Shown piece by piece: positions 4,343 through 12,220 of a stretch of 64,000 nt of DNA. Positions within the stretch are counted from its first letter, which is position 1, and each line of letters begins with the position of its first letter. Origin of the DNA: Rhodococcus sp. W8901. GTDB lineage: Bacteria; Actinomycetota; Actinomycetes; Mycobacteriales; Mycobacteriaceae. Location: NCBI RefSeq assembly GCF_013348805.1, contig NZ_CP054690.1:3658001-3722000 (forward strand), given 5' to 3'. The position numbers and the translations under genes are program-made. The notes under the pieces are model-generated. The model saw nothing but the letters and a program-made list of their open reading frames with translations. It was not told the origin of the DNA and searched no databases.

Positions 4343-5290
4343 CTACCCGGTGATGTCGGTGGGCCGGACATACACCGTCTCGCCCTCCCGCAGGCCGAGG
4401 ACCTCGGCGTCGCTGCGGGTGATCTGGGCCGAGAGTTCCTGCGCGCCGGTCTTGGGCTGCAACTCCACCCGCACCTCGAACCCGAGGTGCACGACGCGGG
4501 AGACCGTGGCCGCGAACGACTGCGGGATCTGGGTGCGCTCGAGCCGCAGATCGTGCGGGCGCACCAGCTGCCCGTTGAGCCGCGCCACGGGCCCGAGGAA
4601 CGACATCACGAAGTCGTTGGCCGGGGTGTCGTACAGCTCCTGTGGGGTACCGACCTGCTCGATCCGCCCCTTGTTGAGCACCGCGATCCGGTCGGCGACG
4701 TCGAGCGCCTCCTCCTGGTCGTGGGTGACCAGGACCGTGGTCACGTGCACCTCGTCGTGCAGGCGCCGCAGCCACGTGCGCAGGTCGTCGCGCACCTTGG
4801 CGTCGAGCGCGCCGAACGGCTCGTCGAGCAGCAGCACCTGCGGGTCTACGGCGAGGGCACGGGCCAGCGCCATGCGCTGACGCTGACCACCGGACAGCTG
4901 CGCCGGGTAGCGGTGCTGGAAGCCGTCGAGTCCGACGATCGCGAGCAGGTCGTCGACCTTCTTGGCGATCTCGGCCTTGGGACGCTTGCGGATCTTGAGG
5001 CCGAACGCGACGTTGTCGCGCACCGTCATGTGCTTGAACGCCGCGTAGTGCTGGAACACGAAGCCGATGTCGCGCTTCTGCGGCGGGACCCCGGTGACGT
5101 CCTTCCCGGCGATCGTGATGGTGCCCGAGTCGGGCTGCTCGAGGCCGGCGATGGACCGCAGCAGCGTCGACTTGCCCGAACCGCTGGGCCCGAGCAGCGC
5201 CGTGAGCGAGCCCGACGGGATGTCGAGGGTGACGTCGTCGAGCGCGGCGAAATCGCCGTAGTTCTTGCGTGCCCCGGTCACGGTAATCAT
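4343..5290 (-). CDS. cysA: Sulfate/thiosulfate ABC transporter ATPase CysA
   Basis: ATP-hydrolysing subunit of the sulfate/thiosulfate importer. The 315-residue sequence shows Walker [10 protein letters not shown], the Q-loop FVFQHYAAF, signature [15 protein letters not shown], Walker [13 protein letters not shown] and the switch His in [12 protein letters not shown] short TOBE-like C-terminal domain ([10 protein letters not shown] and RPTDITG) follows; the protein is about 30-40 residues shorter than enterobacterial CysA. It is last in the sbp-cysT-cysW-cysA run and its ATG overlaps the cysW stop by 4 nt, indicating translational coupling. Regulation probably comes from the attenuator-like leader ahead of sbp. 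Confidence 0.96.
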
Positions 5291-6093
5291 GTCGTGCTCC
5301 TCTTACGGTCGAGCAGAGTCATCAGCAGGAGGGTCACCACAGCGATCGACATCAGCAGTGTCGCCGCGGCGTAGGCCCCGAAGGTGTTGTGGTCATCGAT
5401 GTAACGGGAGTGCACGAGCAGGGTCAGGGTCTGCGACTGGCCGGGAATGCCCGACGAGACCATGATGACGGCACCGAACTCGCCGAGAGCGCGGGCGACG
5501 GTGAGGACGATGCCGTACGTCAGGCCCCAGCGGATCGCCGGAAGGGTGATCCGGGAGAACGTCTGCCACTTGGACGCCCCGAGCGTGGCCGCGGCCTGCT
5601 CCTGCTCGTCCCCGATCTCGTGCAGCACGGGTTCCACCTCGCGCACCACGAACGGCAGGGTCACGAAGATCGTGGCGATCACCATGCCGGGCAACCCGAA
5701 GATCACCTTGAGGCCGAGCGACTCGACGCCGCCGAACCACCCGTTCGCACCCCACAGCAGGATCAGCGAGACGCCGACAACGATCGGCGACACCGCGAAC
5801 GGAAGGTCGACGACGGACTGGAGCAGCCCGCGGCCGGGAAAACGACCCCGCACGAGGGCCAGCGCGGTGACGATGCCGAAGATGACGTTGATCGGCACCA
5901 CGATCGCGACGATCAGCAGCGACAGGTTGAGCGCCGAGATCGCGGCCGGGGTGCTGATCGCGTGGTAGAAGGCGACGAATCCGTGCTCGAAGGTGCGGTA
6001 CAGGATCACGCCGATCGGCACGATCAGGAGTACGAACAGGTAGCCGAGGACGATGGTGCGCAGGCTTATCCGCGCCAAGGGTGAGATCTTCAC
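5287..6093 (-). CDS. cysW: Sulfate ABC transporter permease CysW
   Basis: Second membrane subunit of the CysUWA sulfate importer, 268 residues with six hydrophobic segments and the EAA-type cytoplasmic loop [23 protein letters not shown] that docks the ATPase. I place the start at GTG 6093, where it overlaps the cysT stop as GTGA; the much longer open frame upstream is only read-through antisense-like sequence within cysT. Its stop overlaps the cysA ATG. Sulfate passes through the CysT-CysW pore after delivery by the Sbp lipoprotein. Confidence 0.95.
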
Positions 6094-6974
6094 TGCGCCT
6101 GCTCCTCTCGGCGCTGGTTGCGCGCGGCGAAGATCCGCAGCACGAACAACGTCGCGAAGGCGATTGCCAGCAGGGTCACCGACACCGCCGCCGCACTGAC
6201 GGGACGGTCGATCTCGATCTGCTGCTGAATGTACTGCGAGGCAACCTGGGTCTCGCGCGGGATGTTGCCGCCGATCAGCACCACCGAGCCGTACTCGCCG
6301 ATCGCGCGGGCGAAGGCGAGCCCGGCGCCACTGATGATCGCGGGTGCGAGCGTCGGCAGCACCACTCGACGGAAGATCGTCCAGTTGTTCGCGCCGAGCG
6401 ACGCCGCGGCCTGCTCCACCTCGCGGTCGGCCTCCATCAGCACCGGCTGCACCGACCGGACCACGAACGGAAGGGTGACGAACGCGAGCGCCACGATCAG
6501 GCCGGGCTGAGTCGCATTGAGGTGCACGTCGATCGGGCTCTGCGGCCCGTACAGCGACAGCAGCACGATGCTGGCGACGATGGTCGGCAACGCGAACGGA
6601 AGATCGATCAGCGAGCCCACGATCCGCTTGCCCGGGAACTCGTCCCGCACCAGCACCCACGCGATCATCGTGCCCATCACCACGTTGATCAGGGCGACGA
6701 TCACCGACACCACGATCGTCACGCGGAGCGCCGCCAGGGCGCCGGGCGCGGTGACCGCGTCCCAGAACCCGGACCACCCGTCCTCGAACGATGTCACTGT
6801 CAGCGCCGCCAAGGGCAGCAACACGATGATGCTGAGCCACAACGCCGCGATCCCGATCCCCAACGGACCGACCGCGCCGGTGACGGCGAACCGGCGCCGG
6901 AAGCGTCCCTTCGGTCTCCGTGGTGGTGCGGCCTGCACGGTCGGCTGTGGCGCCTGAGTCGTCACTGTCGTCAT
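6090..6974 (-). CDS. cysT: Sulfate ABC transporter permease CysT (CysU)
   Basis: First membrane subunit of the sulfate importer, 294 residues, with a charged cytoplasmic N-terminus, six membrane spans and the EAA loop EVEQAAASLGANNWTIFRRVVLP. The chosen ATG 6974 shares one base with the sbp stop (TGATG), the coupling typical of this operon; an in-frame extension to 7157 would run back into sbp. The pair CysT/CysW forms the membrane channel and its loops contact CysA. Confidence 0.95.
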   Translation of the reverse strand: MTTVTTQAPQPTVQAAPPRRPKGRFRRRFAVTGAVGPLGIGIAALWLSIIVLLPLAALTVTSFEDGWSGFWDAVTAPGALAALRVTIVVSVIVALINVVMGTMIAWVLVRDEFPGKRIVGSLIDLPFALPTIVASIVLLSLYGPQSPIDVHLNATQPGLIVALAFVTLPFVVRSVQPVLMEADREVEQAAASLGANNWTIFRRVVLPTLAPAIISGAGLAFARAIGEYGSVVLIGGNIPRETQVASQYIQQQIEIDRPVSAAAVSVTLLAIAFATLFVLRIFAARNQRREEQAQ

Positions 6975-8005
6975 CACTTCGTCGCGTTCTCGTAGATAGT
7001 GGCGATCCGGCCCGAGTCCTGCTCGAACAGATCCTTGTCGACGGTGTCCCAGCCACCGAGGTCGGCGACGGTCCACAGCTGCTGCGGTTCCGGGAAGTCG
7101 GCGGCGTACTCGGCCATGACGGCCGGGTCGACGGGCCGGAAGCCGGCCTCCGCCCACTGCCGTTGCGCCGCGGGGGTATACAGGAAATCACGGAACGTGA
7201 CCGCGGTGGATGCGTTCCGACCGGTCGAGACCACCGCCACCGGGTTCTCGACCTTGAAGGTCGCCGTCGGGGTCACGTGCTCCACCGGATCACCCTTGCG
7301 TTCGGTGAACAGCGCCTCGTTCTCGTAGCTGAGCAGCACGTCACCGGTCCCCTGCAGGAACATCTCGGTCGCCTCGCGGCCGGACTTCGGCTGCACCTTC
7401 ACGTGCTCACCGATCAGCTTGCCGAGATAGTCGAGACCGGCCTGCGGATTCCGCCCGCCGTCGCTCGCGGCCGCATAGGGAGCCAACAGGTTCCACTTCG
7501 CCGACCCGGAGCTGAACGGGTTCGGGGTCACGACCTCGACGCCCGGCCGGAGCAGGTCGTCCCAGTCGCGGAGGTTCTTCGGATTGCCCTCGCGGACGAC
7601 GAGCGTCACCACGGACCCGAACGGGACACCGCCGTAGGTGTCCTTGTTCCAGCTGTCGTCGACCAGCCCCTCCTCGACGAGGCGCGTGATCTCCGGCTCG
7701 ACGGAGAAGCTGACGAGGTCCGCCTGGGCACCGTCCTTCACCTTCCGCGACTGGTCGCCGGACGCCCCGTACGACGGGTTGAACCGCACCCCAGCGCCCT
7801 CGCCGGTCTGGGCGAACGCGGCGGTCACCTTGTCGTAGCCGGGCTTCGGGACTCCGTACGCGAACATGTTGATCGTGCCGCCGCTGCCGTCCGCACCGAC
7901 GTCGACTCCGCCCATGACATCGCTCGAGCCGCCGCTACACCCGGCGAGAGCGACTGCTCCGACCGCGACGAGCGCAGTCAGGAACGAGCGGAACCGATGC
8001 TTCAT
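6974..8005 (-). CDS. Sulfate-binding lipoprotein, copy 1 (operon copy)
   Basis: Extracytoplasmic sulfate/thiosulfate receptor of the importer. The 343-residue precursor has a signal peptide ending in the lipobox LAGC (Cys near residue 22), so it is predicted to be lipid-anchored. Sulfate-binding family motifs are VRFNPSYGASGDQSRKV, the PNPFSSGSAKWNLLAPYAA block and GTGDVLLSYENEA. A GGAAGG ribosome-binding site precedes the ATG. It leads the sbp-cysT-cysW-cysA operon, 198 nt after a Cys-Cys leader ORF. A second, very similar copy lies at 8751-9782. From inspection the copies differ mainly in scattered conservative changes across the whole length. Confidence 0.95.
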   Translation of the reverse strand: MKHRFRSFLTALVAVGAVALAGCSGGSSDVMGGVDVGADGSGGTINMFAYGVPKPGYDKVTAAFAQTGEGAGVRFNPSYGASGDQSRKVKDGAQADLVSFSVEPEITRLVEEGLVDDSWNKDTYGGVPFGSVVTLVVREGNPKNLRDWDDLLRPGVEVVTPNPFSSGSAKWNLLAPYAAASDGGRNPQAGLDYLGKLIGEHVKVQPKSGREATEMFLQGTGDVLLSYENEALFTERKGDPVEHVTPTATFKVENPVAVVSTGRNASTAVTFRDFLYTPAAQRQWAEAGFRPVDPAVMAEYAADFPEPQQLWTVADLGGWDTVDKDLFEQDSGRIATIYENATK

Positions 8006-8150
8006 ACGGATTTACCTTCCTACGGTGCCGGCAGATGCAGAAGAGCTCGCGCCGGAGACCCCGACCGGACGGTCGGTCGGTTCGAATGAGGCCTGGATGC
8101 GGGGAGGTGTTCGCGGTGCACGTCACCGCTGAGCGGAACGGGAGGAGAGA

Positions 8151-8171
8151 GCGCGTTCGGATCGAACGCGC
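8151..8171 (-). promoter_or_regulatory. Hairpin between leader ORF 1 and sbp copy 1, attenuator candidate
   Basis: Perfect 9-bp inverted repeat GCGCGTTCG/CGAACGCGC with a 3-nt loop, starting about 32 nt downstream of the leader-1 stop codon on the minus strand. It has no U-tract, so it would act as a factor-dependent or anti-antiterminator structure. The role is inferred from position. Confidence 0.4.
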
Positions 8172-8203
8172 GTGTCACGACAGAGCGAACACCGAGACAG
8201 GAA

Positions 8204-8293
8204 TCAACAACAGTCGATGTCGGCGACTGCGAGTCGGCCGACAGCGATCAACGCCAGTTCATGGCGGACCTGGTGCGCGACGACTACAGACAC
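8204..8293 (-). CDS. Leader peptide 1 ending Cys-Cys-stop, upstream of sbp copy 1
   Basis: A 29-codon ORF begins with GTG 8293 and ends TGT-TGT-TGA. Its centre reads HELALIAVG and LAVADI. A paralogous ORF of identical length precedes the other sbp copy: 22 of 29 residues agree and nine codons differ only synonymously (residues 6, 16, 17, 21, 23, 24, 25, 26 and 29), strong evidence that the frame is translated. A TAAAGT box lies exactly 7 nt before the GTG, so the transcript is probably leaderless. Tandem Cys codons at the very end, in front of a sulfate importer, fit ribosome-stalling attenuation: low Cys-tRNA would stall the ribosome and let transcription or translation of sbp proceed. Cys-rich leaderless leader ORFs of this kind are known in mycobacteria; this instance is my inference. 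Confidence 0.8.
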   Translation of the reverse strand: MSVVVAHQVRHELALIAVGRLAVADIDCC

Positions 8294-8300
8294 GCGGCAG

Positions 8301-8306
8301 ACTTTA
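8301..8306 (-). promoter_or_regulatory. -10 box of leader 1 / sbp-cysTWA operon
   Basis: TAAAGT on the minus strand, preceded by CTGC, 7 nt before the leader-1 GTG. The other copy has CTGC-TATCGT at the same spacing. No convincing -35 is seen. Confidence 0.6.
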
Positions 8307-8356
8307 GCAGAGCACGGAACCGACGTCCGAATGGCGCGATCCGCCGGCACGGACGG

Positions 8357-8434
8357 TCAGCGGGTGAAGTACCAGGCGATGACGACCAGGACGATCAGCG
8401 CGATCAGCGCCAAGGTCACGCGTGAGCGCGGCAT
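8357..8434 (-). CDS. 25-residue single-span membrane micropeptide
   Basis: Its ATG overlaps the stop of the 74-codon gene as TGATG, so translation should be coupled. The sequence starts MPRSR and continues as one hydrophobic helix of about 15 residues (LALIALIVLVVIAWY) ending in FTR: a basic N-terminus with a single span. I know no family for it. Its position between two sulfate-binding protein genes hints at a link to the importer, but there is no direct evidence; it could equally be a relic. Confidence 0.5.
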   Translation of the reverse strand: MPRSRVTLALIALIVLVVIAWYFTR

Positions 8435-8658
8435 CAGGAACCCTCCACCTTCGTGTGTGCGTCCACCCGGACGTCGGAATCGGCCGGATCGGGGCGACCG
8501 ACCGCCGCGAACAGCGCGGACAGCACGCGGTCGAGCGCCCAGGCGATCCCGAAGCAGGCAGGAATCATCACCACGATCACCAGGACGACCTGGGGGATGA
8601 ACGGCAGGCCGGCGACCCACAGTTCGGCGCCGTCCCACCAGTTCGCGAGTTGATCCAC
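8434..8658 (-). CDS. 74-residue small membrane protein, unrecognised
   Basis: Starts at GTG 8658 with MDQLANWWDG; a TAGGGT box 6 nt upstream (8665-8670) suggests a leaderless transcript independent of sbp copy 2, from which it is separated by a strong terminator. One hydrophobic segment spans about residues 20-46 (PFIPQVVLVIVVMIPACFG), followed by an acidic, polar C-terminus ending TKVEGS. It is followed directly by the coupled 25-residue micropeptide. No characterised homologue comes to mind; an accessory role near the sulfate importer is guesswork from context. Confidence 0.65.
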   Translation of the reverse strand: MDQLANWWDGAELWVAGLPFIPQVVLVIVVMIPACFGIAWALDRVLSALFAAVGRPDPADSDVRVDAHTKVEGS

Positions 8659-8683
8659 CCGACCACCCTAGCCGCTGACGAAA

Positions 8684-8726
8684 CGGTGACCGAACACGGC
8701 GCATCAGTCGCCATGTTCGGTCACCG
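8684..8726. terminator. Strong terminator after sbp copy 2
   Basis: 13-bp perfect stem CGGTGACCGAACA/TGTTCGGTCACCG (8684-8696 with 8714-8726), one mismatch, then an inner GGCG/CGCC and a 7-nt loop. It isolates sbp copy 2 from the small membrane genes downstream. Confidence 0.8.
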
Positions 8727-8750
8727 GCGGCACGGGAACCCGCGCGGTCC

Positions 8751-9782
8751 CTACTTCGTCGCGTTCTCGTAGATGACGGCGATACTGCCCGTCCCCTGCT
8801 TGAAGAGTTCCGCGTCGACGGCGGACCAGCCGCCCAGGTCCGCGATGGTCCACAACTGCTGCGGCTGCGGGAAGTCAGCCGCGAACTCCTTCGCGACAGC
8901 CGGATCGACAGGCCGGAAACCGGCCTCCGCCCACAGCTTCTGCGCCTCCGACGTGTACAGGTAGTCACGGAAGGCGGTCGCCTGGGCAATGTTCGGACTG
9001 TTCGAGATCACCGCCACCGGGTTCTCGATCTTGAAGGTGGTCGGCGGGGTCACGTGCTCGACCGGATCACCGTTCCGTTCGGTGAAGAGCGCCTCGTTCT
9101 CGTAGCTGAGCAGCACGTCACCGGTCCCCTGCAGGAACGTCTCGGTGGCCTCGCGCCCCGACTTCGGCTGCACCTTGACGTGCTCGCCGACCAGCTTGCC
9201 GAGGTAGTCGAGACCGGCCTGCGGGTTCTTGCCACCGTCACTCTTCGCGGCATAGGGGGCCAACAGATTCCACTTCGCCGAGCCGGAGCTGAACGGGTTC
9301 GGGGTCACGACCTCGATGCCGGGCCGGAGCAGGTCGTCCCAGTCCTGGATGTTCTTCGGGTTGCCCTCACGGACGACGATCGTCACGACCGACCCGAACG
9401 GAATCCCCTTGTAGGCGTCGTTGTTCCAGTCCTCGTCGACGAGGCCGGCATCGACGAGGCGGGTGATGTCGGGTTCGACCGAGAAGTTCACGAAGTCGGC
9501 CTGCGCGCCGTCCTTGACCTTCCGCGACTGGTCACCCGAGGCCCCGTAGGACGGGTTGAATCGCACCCCCTTGCCCTCCTCGGTCTCGGCAAATGCGGCG
9601 GTGACCTTGTCGAATCCCGGCTTGGGAACCGCGTATGCGAACAAATTGATCGTGCCGCCGCTGCCGTCGGCGCCGGTATCGGCGCCACCGACGACGTCAC
9701 TCGAGCCGCCGCCGCACGCGGTCAGCGCGACTGCGCCGATCGCGGCGAGTGCGGTCAGGAACGAACGGGAACGGTGCCTCAT
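8751..9782 (-). CDS. Sulfate-binding lipoprotein, copy 2
   Basis: Paralogue of the operon copy at 6974-8005 with the same length (343) and the same blocks: lipobox LTAC (Cys near residue 22), VRFNPSYGASGDQSRKV, PNPFSSGSAKWNLLAPYAA and GTGDVLLSYENEA. The start ATG 9782 has a GGAAGG site 6-9 nt upstream; an in-frame upstream extension is mere leader read-through. It appears monocistronic: its own Cys-Cys leader lies 249 nt upstream and a strong terminator follows. The duplication therefore includes the regulatory leader. It may deliver to the same CysTWA permease with different affinity or oxyanion preference; that is inference. Confidence 0.94.
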   Translation of the reverse strand: MRHRSRSFLTALAAIGAVALTACGGGSSDVVGGADTGADGSGGTINLFAYAVPKPGFDKVTAAFAETEEGKGVRFNPSYGASGDQSRKVKDGAQADFVNFSVEPDITRLVDAGLVDEDWNNDAYKGIPFGSVVTIVVREGNPKNIQDWDDLLRPGIEVVTPNPFSSGSAKWNLLAPYAAKSDGGKNPQAGLDYLGKLVGEHVKVQPKSGREATETFLQGTGDVLLSYENEALFTERNGDPVEHVTPPTTFKIENPVAVISNSPNIAQATAFRDYLYTSEAQKLWAEAGFRPVDPAVAKEFAADFPQPQQLWTIADLGGWSAVDAELFKQGTGSIAVIYENATK

Positions 9783-9832
9783 GGATTGCCTTCCTACCAG
9801 GCTCACAGGTGCTGTGGATGCCGTACGAGAAC

Positions 9833-9854
9833 CGACCCGGCACATGCCGGGTCG
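9833..9854 (-). promoter_or_regulatory. Hairpin ahead of sbp copy 2, attenuator/terminator candidate
   Basis: Inverted repeat CGACCCGGCA/TGCCGGGTCG, 10 bp each side with a 2-nt centre, 51 nt upstream of the sbp copy-2 start. In practice it would fold as an 8-bp stem with a small loop. No matching structure lies at the same place in copy 1. Confidence 0.45.
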
Positions 9855-9944
9855 AGAAGAGCGGAACGGAAAACGGAACACTGAAGTCGGAACTCGGACA
9901 GATGTCCTGGAGTTGACGGCGTTCGGCACGAGCCGCGCACGGGA

Positions 9945-9969
9945 AGTTCCCCGCGACCGGCGGGGAACT
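9945..9969 (-). promoter_or_regulatory. Second hairpin in the sbp copy-2 leader
   Basis: 9-bp perfect stem AGTTCCCCG/CGGGGAACT with a 7-nt loop, 62 nt downstream of the leader-2 stop codon. It is a candidate for the alternative structure of an attenuator. A longer-range pairing is also possible between 9918-9925 and 10014-10021 (GGCGTTCG/CGAACGCC), which would enclose this hairpin. Confidence 0.4.
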
Positions 9970-10031
9970 GGGGTTACGACAGAGGTGCGGTCGAGACCGG
10001 ATCTACGCGCAAGCGAACGCCGAGACCCGCA

Positions 10032-10121
10032 TCAGCAACAGTGAATATCCGCAACTGCAAGCCCGCCGACGGCAATCAACGCCAGTTCATGGCGGATGCG
10101 GTGAGCGGCGGCAGCAGACAC
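10032..10121 (-). CDS. Leader peptide 2 ending Cys-Cys-stop, upstream of sbp copy 2
   Basis: A 29-codon ORF from GTG 10121 to TGT-TGC-TGA, homologous over its whole length to leader 1. It keeps HELALIAVG, LAVADI and the terminal CC, while the second codon block changed from VVV to AAA and residues 8, 9, 20 and 27 are substituted. Codon 29 is TGC here and TGT in copy 1. TATCGT (10129-10134) lies 7 nt before the GTG, again predicting a leaderless mRNA. It presumably senses cysteinyl-tRNA and controls sbp copy 2. The divergent GH15 gene begins about 130 bp away on the other strand. Confidence 0.8.
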   Translation of the reverse strand: MSAAAAHRIRHELALIAVGGLAVADIHCC

Positions 10122-10128
10122 GTCGCCG

Positions 10129-10134
10129 ACGATA
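10129..10134 (-). promoter_or_regulatory. -10 box of leader 2 / sbp copy 2
   Basis: TATCGT on the minus strand, preceded by CTGC as in copy 1, with a 7-nt gap to the leader-2 GTG. Confidence 0.6.
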
Positions 10135-10249
10135 GCAGACGTCCGTCCGTAATCGAACAGTCGGAACGATGCCGAAGAACCCGAACAACCCTGCCGGAGA
10201 CCTCCGCCGAACTGTGGACGCTGACCGACGCACGGTCGATGATGAGGGG

Positions 10250-12220
10250 ATGACGTCGCAGGCCGAGCAGTCCGTGACCACGCCGATCAGAGATTCCGAC
10301 GAGGTCGCACCGAGGCGTCGCAGCGTCTTCCCGCCGATCGACGACTACGCCTTCCTCTCCGACTGCGAGACGAACTGCCTCGTCGCACGCAACGGCGCGG
10401 TCGAGTGGATGTGCGTCCCGCGCCCCGACTCCCCCAGTGTGTTCGGCGCGATCCTCGACCGTAGCGCCGGACACTTCCAGATCGGACCGTACGGCCAGAA
10501 CGTGCCGTCTGCGCGGCGCTACCTGCCGGGTGGGCTGATCCTCGAGACCACGTGGCAGACCCAGACCGGCTGGCTGATCGTGCGTGACGCACTCGTGATG
10601 GGCCCGTGGCACGCCAACGAACAGCGCTCCCCCACGCGCCGTCGGACACCGTCGGACTGGGACGCCGAACACATCCTGTTGCGGACCGTCAAGTGCGTGA
10701 GCGGCACCGTCGAGTTGGAGATGAGTTGTGAGCCGGCGTTCGACTACCACCGCGCCCCGGCGCACTGGGAGTACACCGGAAACGTGTACGAGGAGGCCAC
10801 CGCCACGTGCCGCACCGCCTCCCCGGGCGAGCAGCCGACGCTGCGGCTGACGTCGAATCTGCGGCTCGGACTCGAGGGGCGCGAGGCCCGCGCGCGCACC
10901 CGCATGGTGGAGGGCGACAACGCGTTCGTGGCCTTGTCGTGGTCGGAGCCGACGGCCCCGCAGACCTTCGAGGAAGCCGCCGACAAGATGTGGCAGACCA
11001 CCGAGTGCTGGAGACAATGGGTGACGATCGGGCGTTTCCCCGACCATCCGTGGCGGAGCCACCTGCAGAGCAGCGCACTGACTCTCAAGGGCCTGACCTA
11101 CGCACCGACCGGCGCCCTGCTCGCCGCACCCACCACGTCACTGCCGGAAACCCCCGGTGGCGAACGTAACTGGGACTACCGGTACGCATGGGTGCGGGAT
11201 TCGACGTTCGCGCTCTGGGGCCTCTACACCCTCGGGCTCGATCGTGAAGCCAACGACTTCTTCTCGTTCATCTTCGACGCTGCGCAGTCGGACGACGGCG
11301 ATCCGGCCCCACTGCAGGTGATGTACGGCGTCGGCGGCGAGCACACCCTCGTCGAAGAGGAGCTCAGTCACCTGAAGGGATACGACGGGGCCCTGCCGGT
11401 GCGGGTCGGCAACGACGCCTACAACCAGAACCAGCACGACATCTGGGGAACCCTGCTCGACTCGGTGTACCTGCACGTCCGGTCCCGCGACCAGGTCCCC
11501 GAGACGTTGTGGCCGCTGCTCGAGCGGCAGGTCCAGGAGGTCATCGAACACTGGCGTGAGCCGGACCGCGGGATCTGGGAGGTGCGCGGCGAGCCGCAGC
11601 ACTTCACATCGTCGAAGATCATGTGCTGGGTGGCGCTCGACCGCGGCGTCAAGCTCGCCAACCTGCACGGCGAGAAGGCCTACGCGGCGCAGTGGTCCGA
11701 GATCGCCGACGAAGTCAAGGCCGACATCCTCGAGCACGGCGTCGACGAACGCGGGGTATTCACGCAGCGCTACGGGCACCCGTCCCTCGACGCCTCACTG
11801 CTGCTGGCACCACTGCTGCGGTTCCTGCCCGCCGACGACCCCCGGATCCGGGCGACGGTCCTGGCGATCGCGGACGAACTCACCGAGGACGGACTCGTGC
11901 TCCGCTACCGCGTCGAGTCCACCGACGACGGCCTGTCCGGCAAGGAGGGCACGTTCACGATCTGCTCGTTCCTGCTCGTGTCCGCGCTCGTCGAGATCGG
12001 GGAGGTGCAGCGGGCCAGGGACCTGTGTGAACGGCTGCTTTCGTTCGCGAGCCCGCTCAAGCTCTACGGCGAGGAGATCGACCCCAAGAGTGGCCGACAC
12101 CTGGGCAACTTCCCGCAGGCGTTCACCCACCTGGCCCTCATCAATGCCGTCGTCCACGTCATCCGCGCCGAGGAAACCGGCCACACCGGGACGTTCCAGC
12201 CCGCGCACGGCCCTTCGTGA
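10250..12220 (+). CDS. Glycoside hydrolase family 15 protein, probable trehalase
   Basis: A 656-residue GH15 protein with the N-terminal beta-sandwich domain (IDDYAFLSDCETNCLVARNGAVEWMCVPR) and an (alpha/alpha)6 catalytic domain. The conserved RNWDYRYAWVRDSTFALWGL block carries substrate-binding residues and GYDGALPVRVGNDAYNQNQHDIWG continues the active site; acidic residues in EPDRGIWEVRG and GTFTICSFLLVSALVEIG flank the catalytic glutamates. In mycobacteria the syntenic GH15 protein beside the sulfate transporter is a trehalase splitting trehalose to glucose, so I favour that over glucoamylase. I chose ATG 10250; ATG 10169, in the same frame, would add 27 polar residues. Confidence 0.88.
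   Translation: MTSQAEQSVTTPIRDSDEVAPRRRSVFPPIDDYAFLSDCETNCLVARNGAVEWMCVPRPDSPSVFGAILDRSAGHFQIGPYGQNVPSARRYLPGGLILETTWQTQTGWLIVRDALVMGPWHANEQRSPTRRRTPSDWDAEHILLRTVKCVSGTVELEMSCEPAFDYHRAPAHWEYTGNVYEEATATCRTASPGEQPTLRLTSNLRLGLEGREARARTRMVEGDNAFVALSWSEPTAPQTFEEAADKMWQTTECWRQWVTIGRFPDHPWRSHLQSSALTLKGLTYAPTGALLAAPTTSLPETPGGERNWDYRYAWVRDSTFALWGLYTLGLDREANDFFSFIFDAAQSDDGDPAPLQVMYGVGGEHTLVEEELSHLKGYDGALPVRVGNDAYNQNQHDIWGTLLDSVYLHVRSRDQVPETLWPLLERQVQEVIEHWREPDRGIWEVRGEPQHFTSSKIMCWVALDRGVKLANLHGEKAYAAQWSEIADEVKADILEHGVDERGVFTQRYGHPSLDASLLLAPLLRFLPADDPRIRATVLAIADELTEDGLVLRYRVESTDDGLSGKEGTFTICSFLLVSALVEIGEVQRARDLCERLLSFASPLKLYGEEIDPKSGRHLGNFPQAFTHLALINAVVHVIRAEETGHTGTFQPAHGPS

Follow-up and report, generated by a model that had tools for sequence, protein, structure and literature searches.

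Leader peptides are usually taken as strings of control codons, and leaders of the TnaC type are short, with a conserved C-terminal part and an untranslated region past the stop codon. In mycobacteria, attenuation by upstream open reading frames (uORFs) rich in Cys codons is proposed in passages of Shell 2015 (PMC4633059), and Canestrari 2020 is said to show Cys attenuation in Mycobacterium smegmatis in excerpts of PMC9031893 and PMC13236596, with an excerpt of PMC9094748 as a further second-hand source. Excerpts of PMC8079986 list eight leader peptides of S. lividans, none of those listed there being of the NCBIfam family NF042937 ("Ms4533A family Cys-rich leader peptide"). Here, we describe two open reading frames (ORFs), leaders A and B, in a 64,000-nucleotide stretch of Rhodococcus sp. 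W8901 (contig NZ_CP054690.1, positions 3,658,001 to 3,722,000; genus Prescottella), hereafter the window. Each lies ahead of its own gene for a sulfate-binding protein, sbpA or sbpB. With a probability of roughly 0.8, they are of a known kind, namely leaderless attenuators of the Ms4533A family (NF042937), one per sbp gene, which would stem from duplication of a leader-sbp module and in which a halted ribosome would raise sbp expression. The leaders and their promoter boxes are as follows (window coordinates, minus strand marked (-)):

8204..8293 (-): leader A ORF, peptide VSVVVAHQVRHELALIAVGRLAVADIDCC then stop; 29 codons, GTG start; NF042937 43.6 bits, cut-off 31
8301..8306 (-): -10 box TAAAGT of leader A, 7 nt 5' of the GTG, with CTGC just before the box
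10032..10121 (-): leader B ORF, peptide VSAAAAHRIRHELALIAVGGLAVADIHCC then stop; 29 codons, GTG start; NF042937 52.2 bits, cut-off 31
10129..10134 (-): -10 box TATCGT of leader B, 7 nt 5' of the GTG, with CTGC just before the box

An earlier note on this DNA had reported two GTG-started minus-strand ORFs of 29 codons, each 7 nt behind a TANNNT box preceded by CTGC and each ending in Cys-Cys-TGA, and all of these elements were found where it had placed them. Leader A ends in UGU-UGU-UGA and leader B in UGU-UGC-UGA. When the stop is counted, 14 of the 30 codons are identical, nine differ synonymously and seven non-synonymously, and the differences at codon positions 1, 2 and 3 number 3, 4 and 12, which bears out the coding-like divergence that the note had described (12 of 19 differences at third positions). 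Its count of 22 equal residues in 29 also holds; the nine synonymous codons fall within those 22 and are not additional to them, as it had supposed. Ungapped identity between the copies is 71/90 in the ORF, 13/20 in the adjacent upstream sequence, 10/40 farther upstream and 22/40 downstream. The pattern TANNNT-N7-RTG occurs ten times in the window, and the two occurrences that open an ORF of 15 to 50 codons are those of leaders A and B, both Cys-Cys-ending; 100 first-order Markov windows contained no comparable short ORF ending in Cys-Cys. A DNA search of the whole genome (E ≤ 0.001) returned two places, again leaders A and B.

The idea of an undescribed leader family in Nocardiaceae, raised in the same note, had to be given up, since both copies exceed the NF042937 cut-off and the family is represented in 93 of the 151 genomes sampled from the GTDB family (E ≤ 0.01; 72 above cut-off) as well as in a second family. 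No NF042937 match was found in 14 control genomes searched alongside that first sample. All 14 genomes of Prescottella carry the leader, 11 of them in two copies. Across the class-wide sample, 40 of 394 genomes matched at E ≤ 0.001 (36 above cut-off), spread over 6 of 138 genera; 17 of these 40 come from genus g52 and one from g51. Genus g52 represents the second family, with large genomes of 7-11 Mb, and we take it to be Streptomyces. A total of 130 leaders were read and aligned on the Cys of D-x-x-C (on the last match where a leader had two D..C matches), yielding 124 distinct leaders from 22 genera. Eight places of the family sample (G033:C1, G038:C28, G086, G100, G113, G126:C4, G136:C21 and G147) and five of the class-wide sample (G354, G379, G397, G420 and G490) were left out. 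Two further rows are outside the counts, both with UGU at the aligned Cys: L128, whose start is doubtful, and L109, a weak match. The latter is a 26-bit leader-like stretch in G023 in which no leaderless start was seen, located ahead of an ABC ATPase gene that by eye resembles part of a sulfonate importer. Among the 112 Mycobacteriaceae leaders, i.e., those outside g51 and g52, TANNNT lies at exactly 7 nt in 105, a number to be read with the start picker's preference for such starts in mind.

Both leaders directly precede a sulfate transport gene, with 198 nt (copy A) and 249 nt (copy B) between leader stop and sbp start. The genes concerned are:

6974..8005 (-): sbpA, sulfate ABC transporter substrate-binding protein; TIGR00971 161.6 bits, cut-off 155.5
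6090..6974 (-): cysT permease; TIGR02139 269.1 bits, cut-off 246.1
5287..6093 (-): cysW permease; TIGR02140 349.4 bits, cut-off 329.1
4343..5290 (-): cysA ATPase; TIGR00968 414.9 bits, cut-off 342.75
8751..9782 (-): sbpB, sulfate ABC transporter substrate-binding protein; TIGR00971 169.0 bits; 80.5% identity to sbpA

With L109 set aside, an sbp homolog comes next in all 111 Mycobacteriaceae rows for which a leader start was assigned. In a tree of 46 binding proteins, the 25 Prescottella copies group together (support 100/99), and 11 copy-A proteins, each from a two-copy genome, form one clade (87/96, below the level that the tool counts as strong support); in the same tree, neither the copy-B proteins nor the three single copies separated clearly. 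The leaders track their sbp genes, which indicates joint duplication of leader and sbp, and this event appears to date from a common ancestor of most species of Prescottella. The family match, the position and the duplicate modules in 11 of 14 genomes thus agree with the central proposal of the earlier note, that these are leaderless Cys-ending leaders ahead of sulfur genes, duplicated together with sbp and most likely cysteine-responsive attenuators. Two leader-sbp modules were also seen outside Prescottella, on separate contigs of G038 (genus g26; L095 and L097), one with a CR and one with a CCR ending.

Every one of the 124 leaders has UGU as its aligned Cys codon, compared with a UGU share of 16-21% in ordinary genes (17/80 in the window, 83/506 in the named loci). 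The aligned codon is followed by UGU in 52 leaders, CGC in 47, UGC in 14, CGU in 5, CGG in 4 and AGC in 2. From the aligned position on, 58 leaders hold a single Cys, 60 hold two, four hold three and two hold four, i.e., at least two in 66; a few g29 leaders have an extra Cys ahead of the aligned one. A terminal Cys-Cys is therefore not a general rule, since the lone Cys of those 58 distinct leaders is mostly followed by Arg. The earlier note had staked its reading on relatives keeping both the frame and the terminal Cys-Cys; the frame is kept and the second Cys is not. In leaders of a second family, NF042936 (Ms4527A), 71 of 110 Cys codons are UGU, with UGU at the aligned first Cys in only 13 of 29. 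This comparison suggests that UGU is favored across Cys leaders and fixed in the NF042937 family.

To quantify conservation of the peptide, ratios of non-synonymous to synonymous differences (pN/pS) were calculated from 648 within-genus pairs, with ranges from a codon bootstrap and codons numbered from the aligned Cys. The N-terminal codons -26..-19 are near-neutral (0.94, range 0.70-1.38), and the last 19 codons are kept as protein, with values of 0.31 (0.15-0.75) for codons -18..-14, 0.16 (0.07-0.22) for -13..-9, 0.45 (0.32-0.70) for -8..-6 and 0.20 (0.02-0.46) for -5..0. Synonymous change was alike in the N terminus (pS 0.35) and in codons -13..-9 (pS 0.32). Within Prescottella, the core reached 0.13 and the N terminus 0.80, and bias from detection is small here because all genomes of the genus carry the leader (per-genus values were calculated without L120, L135 and L136, all three of which are included in the segment values). 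Once the Cys codon reached the A site, the constrained segment would be the part lying in the exit tunnel, a pattern that fits a nascent-chain element.

One hairpin (HP1) and a second, possible one (HP2) lie inside the ORF:

8252..8266 (-): HP1 of leader A, CGCCA-TGAAC-TGGCG; 110/124 leaders, compared with 36.8 after recoding
10080..10094 (-): HP1 of leader B; same comparison as for leader A
8207..8224 (-): HP2 of leader A, GC(c)GACA with UGU-UGU of the two Cys codons as its partner; less well supported
10035..10052 (-): HP2 of leader B; less well supported

HP1 has the form CGCCA-N4..6-UGGCG and covers codons -18..-14; its null was obtained from 200 recodings that keep the peptide (standard deviation [SD] 5.3, maximum 50). 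The outer pair is C-G in 86 leaders and G-C in 8, and in g52 the same hairpin is found in another reading register with a loop longer by one base. All six pairs of HP2, formed by the Asp codon with UGU, are present in 102 of 124 leaders versus 14.8 under plain recoding, and in 91.9 (SD 3.6, maximum 102, 300 recodings) when UGU is held fixed, so that nearly all of the excess is due to UGU. The remaining evidence for HP2 is that Arg codons after the Cys are CGC or CGT in 52 of 56 cases versus 61% in genes. We regard HP1 as genuine and HP2 as a possibility. Folding of whole leaders was no stronger than that of recoded leaders (mean z +0.73, 34 leaders), and Rfam cis-regulatory RNAs gave no match at gathering score in the window, with only a chance-level sX6 match (E 0.94) at 7990-10250.

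The stretch between leader stop and sbp contains the following elements:

8006..8203 (-): C-rich, G-poor untranslated gap, leader A to sbpA
9783..10031 (-): untranslated gap, leader B to sbpB
8185..8193 (-): P3 arm GGTGTTCGC after leader A, partner 8106-8114; Prescottella alignment, 5-6 of 6 sequences per pair
8106..8114 (-): P3' arm GCGAACACC; Prescottella alignment
8061..8076 (-): GC-rich hairpin, leader A to sbpA, terminator-like without U run; 4-6 of 6 sequences per pair
10014..10022 (-): P3 arm CGGCGTTCG after leader B, partner 9917-9925; 4-5 of 5 sequences per pair
9917..9925 (-): P3' arm CGAACGCCG; Prescottella alignment
9834..9853 (-): hairpin GACCCGGCATGTGCCGGGTC ahead of sbpB, terminator-like without U run; 3-5 of 5 sequences per pair

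Cytosine exceeds guanine in the gap at 104 of the 111 loci from Mycobacteriaceae (means of 0.38 for C and 0.27 for G), at 17/17 g52 loci over the first 150 nt and at 27 of 29 NF042936 loci, compared with 73 of 127 control upstream non-coding stretches, a set drawn with a crude gene finder and including untranscribed DNA. The leader ORF and sbp are balanced in C and G, and the mean C-over-G difference lies above zero in 18 of 21 genera. The long-range P3 pairing and the GC-rich hairpins are conserved in Prescottella. A consensus scan detected no intrinsic terminator with a U run in the gaps and one chance-level match inside leader A. Direct pairing between the leader end and the start region of the following gene, hinted at by several RNAalifold pictures, gained no support, being no better than that of other windows or of partners from other genera. 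In g29, in the first 50 nt from the Cys codons, a 12-pair helix links a downstream site with the Cys tract and the stop (8-10 of 10 sequences per pair) and would compete with HP2.

Other genes follow the leader in other lineages. In g52, the next gene encodes an SBP_bac_5 lipoprotein, a binding protein of the peptide type. In one genome, this is the first gene of an operon that continues with two permeases and an ABC ATPase; glutathione and oligopeptide importers are among the best NCBIfam matches of the operon, most of which fall short of the cut-off. Such an arrangement would imply cysteine control of a peptide-type importer. Many of the g52 leaders (L058-L062, L121-L133) have CATATT instead of TANNNT 7 nt 5' of their ATG. 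In g51 (L131, L220), a leader-like ORF at 29.9 bits, slightly below cut-off, precedes a sulfatase gene. The genome of the window also carries an NF042936 leader (L141, 3654251-3654313; 49.3 bits, cut-off 45) about 3.7 kb outside the low end of the window, ahead of a nitrite/sulfite-reductase gene. Furthermore, an ORF ahead of an OsmC gene (L142, 5225204-5225251) matches NF042936 at 20.2 bits, below cut-off; with a GTG 7 nt past TACAGT, the residues RRRHVDF and two UGU codons, it is perhaps a further Cys leader. Together with L141, this weak relative suggests that several sulfur genes of the genome may share such leaders. Two small ORFs of 74 and 25 codons on the minus strand at 8357-8656, in the interval separating sbpB from leader A, gave no Pfam or NCBIfam match.

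If leaders A and B are attenuators, the transcript would begin at the GTG and the 29-codon peptide would be translated immediately. With scarce charged tRNA-Cys, the ribosome would stop at UGU, one or two codons short of the stop codon, and with ample cysteine it would complete the leader and depart. The halt would lead to higher expression of the sbp mRNA and, for copy A, also of cysT-cysW-cysA. For this output step, start-site control and Rho-dependent termination each come close to an even chance without reaching it, and an intrinsic terminator is improbable. Several results weigh against the attenuator reading. A pure hungry-codon design would want the second Cys codon that 58 of the 124 leaders lack, and in the Prescottella pairs, where copy A has two Cys in 11/11, copy B has a single one in 6/11. 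The core is least conserved as protein in g18 (pN/pS 0.78) and g52 (0.51). P3 pairing is not general in other genera, the downstream fold being genus-specific. In equilibrium folding of 109 loci (rows L109, L117, L128 and L138 excluded; absence of the ribosome was also modeled), exposure was the same with the ribosome at the Cys codon as at the stop, the mean change being -0.006 for the Shine-Dalgarno sequence (P 0.94) and +0.008 for the start codon (P 0.46). Also, as a pairing partner for the start region of its own gene, the leader end did not outrank other windows (mean rank 0.555 at 121 loci, without L109, L117, L138 and g52 rows in which no start was found).

These observations bear on how a halt would arise and act. 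One possibility, which we regard as open to doubt, is an arrest peptide, in which the core LALIAVG-x-LAVAD[IV]-x-C in the exit tunnel would slow or halt the ribosome at the UGU or stop, cysteine being read by the nascent chain together with a slow codon. The protein constraint is restricted to the part that would lie in the tunnel, following a near-neutral N terminus, persists in codons -13..-9 outside both hairpins and recurs in Prescottella, and one Cys suffices in 58 of 124 leaders; likewise, 30 of 30 NF042936 loci carry RRH[VI]D-x-KRV with varied codons, these loci having been found via that very profile. However, the conserved residues might serve otherwise, for example in a trans-acting product, and discovery of both families by peptide profile favors conserved members. 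Attenuation through Rho, in which the gap would be the loading region and the halted ribosome, or a structure that it allows, would exclude Rho, is likewise held tentatively. It agrees with the C-over-G skew of the gaps in all three sets and in the genus means, and PMC12810186 reports for M. tuberculosis a uORF leader in which termination depends on Rho; yet the skew is modest (+0.10 in Prescottella), its rows are non-independent and its control set is crude, and it is hard to explain how a gap of 200 nt could be shielded by a ribosome that sits two codons short of the stop. Occlusion of the start site is a third version: without a halted ribosome, the leader end would pair directly or via other hairpins and hide the sbp start, which the halt would free. 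We consider this conceivable rather than probable. It has been reported for a sister leader of M. smegmatis (Canestrari 2020, as relayed in excerpts of PMC13236596 and PMC9031893), a halted ribosome would break the g29 helix, and the leader end is among the top partners of the start region in g20 (mean rank 0.03) and g24 (0.15), but neither the exposure folding nor the pairing ranks gave a general signal, and no pairing stands out in Prescottella (mean rank 0.68).

Two explanations dispense with regulation altogether. A functional small protein, short and membrane-like, that lies ahead of sbp by chance would account for the hydrophobic core and its strong protein-level conservation; the near-neutral N terminus, the invariant UGU, the conserved hairpin and the change of downstream sulfur and uptake genes between lineages make it very unlikely. 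Chance, or a non-coding residue of the duplication, has practically no remaining probability: the copies are paralogous, so their likeness by itself is expected, but the synonymous pattern, the empty Markov windows and the conservation across 22 genera already refute it. Returning to the attenuators, their parts could also be combined into a composite cysteine sensor, a scheme that as a whole we think somewhat unlikely. In it, LALIAVG-x-LAVAD[IV]-x-C in the exit tunnel would make the ribosome hesitate at one obligatory, wobble-read UGU, the hairpins of the ORF would time the ribosome against RNA polymerase, release or halt would decide Rho loading, and the second codon would tune the copies, which such a scheme permits because that codon alternates between Cys and Arg (UGY/CGY) with RNA pairing kept.

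The window holds a new, duplicated leader of a described kind whose anatomy makes a contribution of an arrest peptide worth testing, and the contrast between near-neutral N terminus and constrained C terminus suggests that the core may take part in sensing. If it does, actinobacteria would possess a large natural repertoire of stall sequences that depend on cysteine, in more than one bacterial family and ahead of varied sulfur and uptake genes. The Prescottella pair offers a natural comparison: a single locus holds both paralogs, and copy B has lost a Cys codon in roughly half of the two-copy species. Text searches of the literature, partial in coverage and no proof of novelty, returned no paper on the peptide core, HP1 or the UGU rule.

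Compared with TnaC and other arrest-peptide or Rho-linked leaders, the window leaders are likewise short, with a conserved C-terminal part and an untranslated stretch after the stop, but their residues differ. With the polycysteine leaderless short ORFs of mycobacteria, they share what is probably a leaderless start, the small size, the Cys codons at the end and the position ahead of sulfur genes; unlike these, relatives in their family often have one Cys codon, and they add a conserved core and a hairpin. NF042936 (Ms4527A), found ahead of nirA-type genes, provides a Cys leader in the same genome with a seemingly invariant RRHVDxKRV core, a UGU-rich Cys tract (71/110) and a C-rich gap, but its peptide is a different one and its first Cys codon is UGU in 13/29 only. 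The closest counterpart is NF042937 (Ms4533A) itself, whose cut-off both window peptides exceed and whose site ahead of sulfate-transport genes they share; what sets the window apart is two side-by-side copies in one locus, each with its own sbp.

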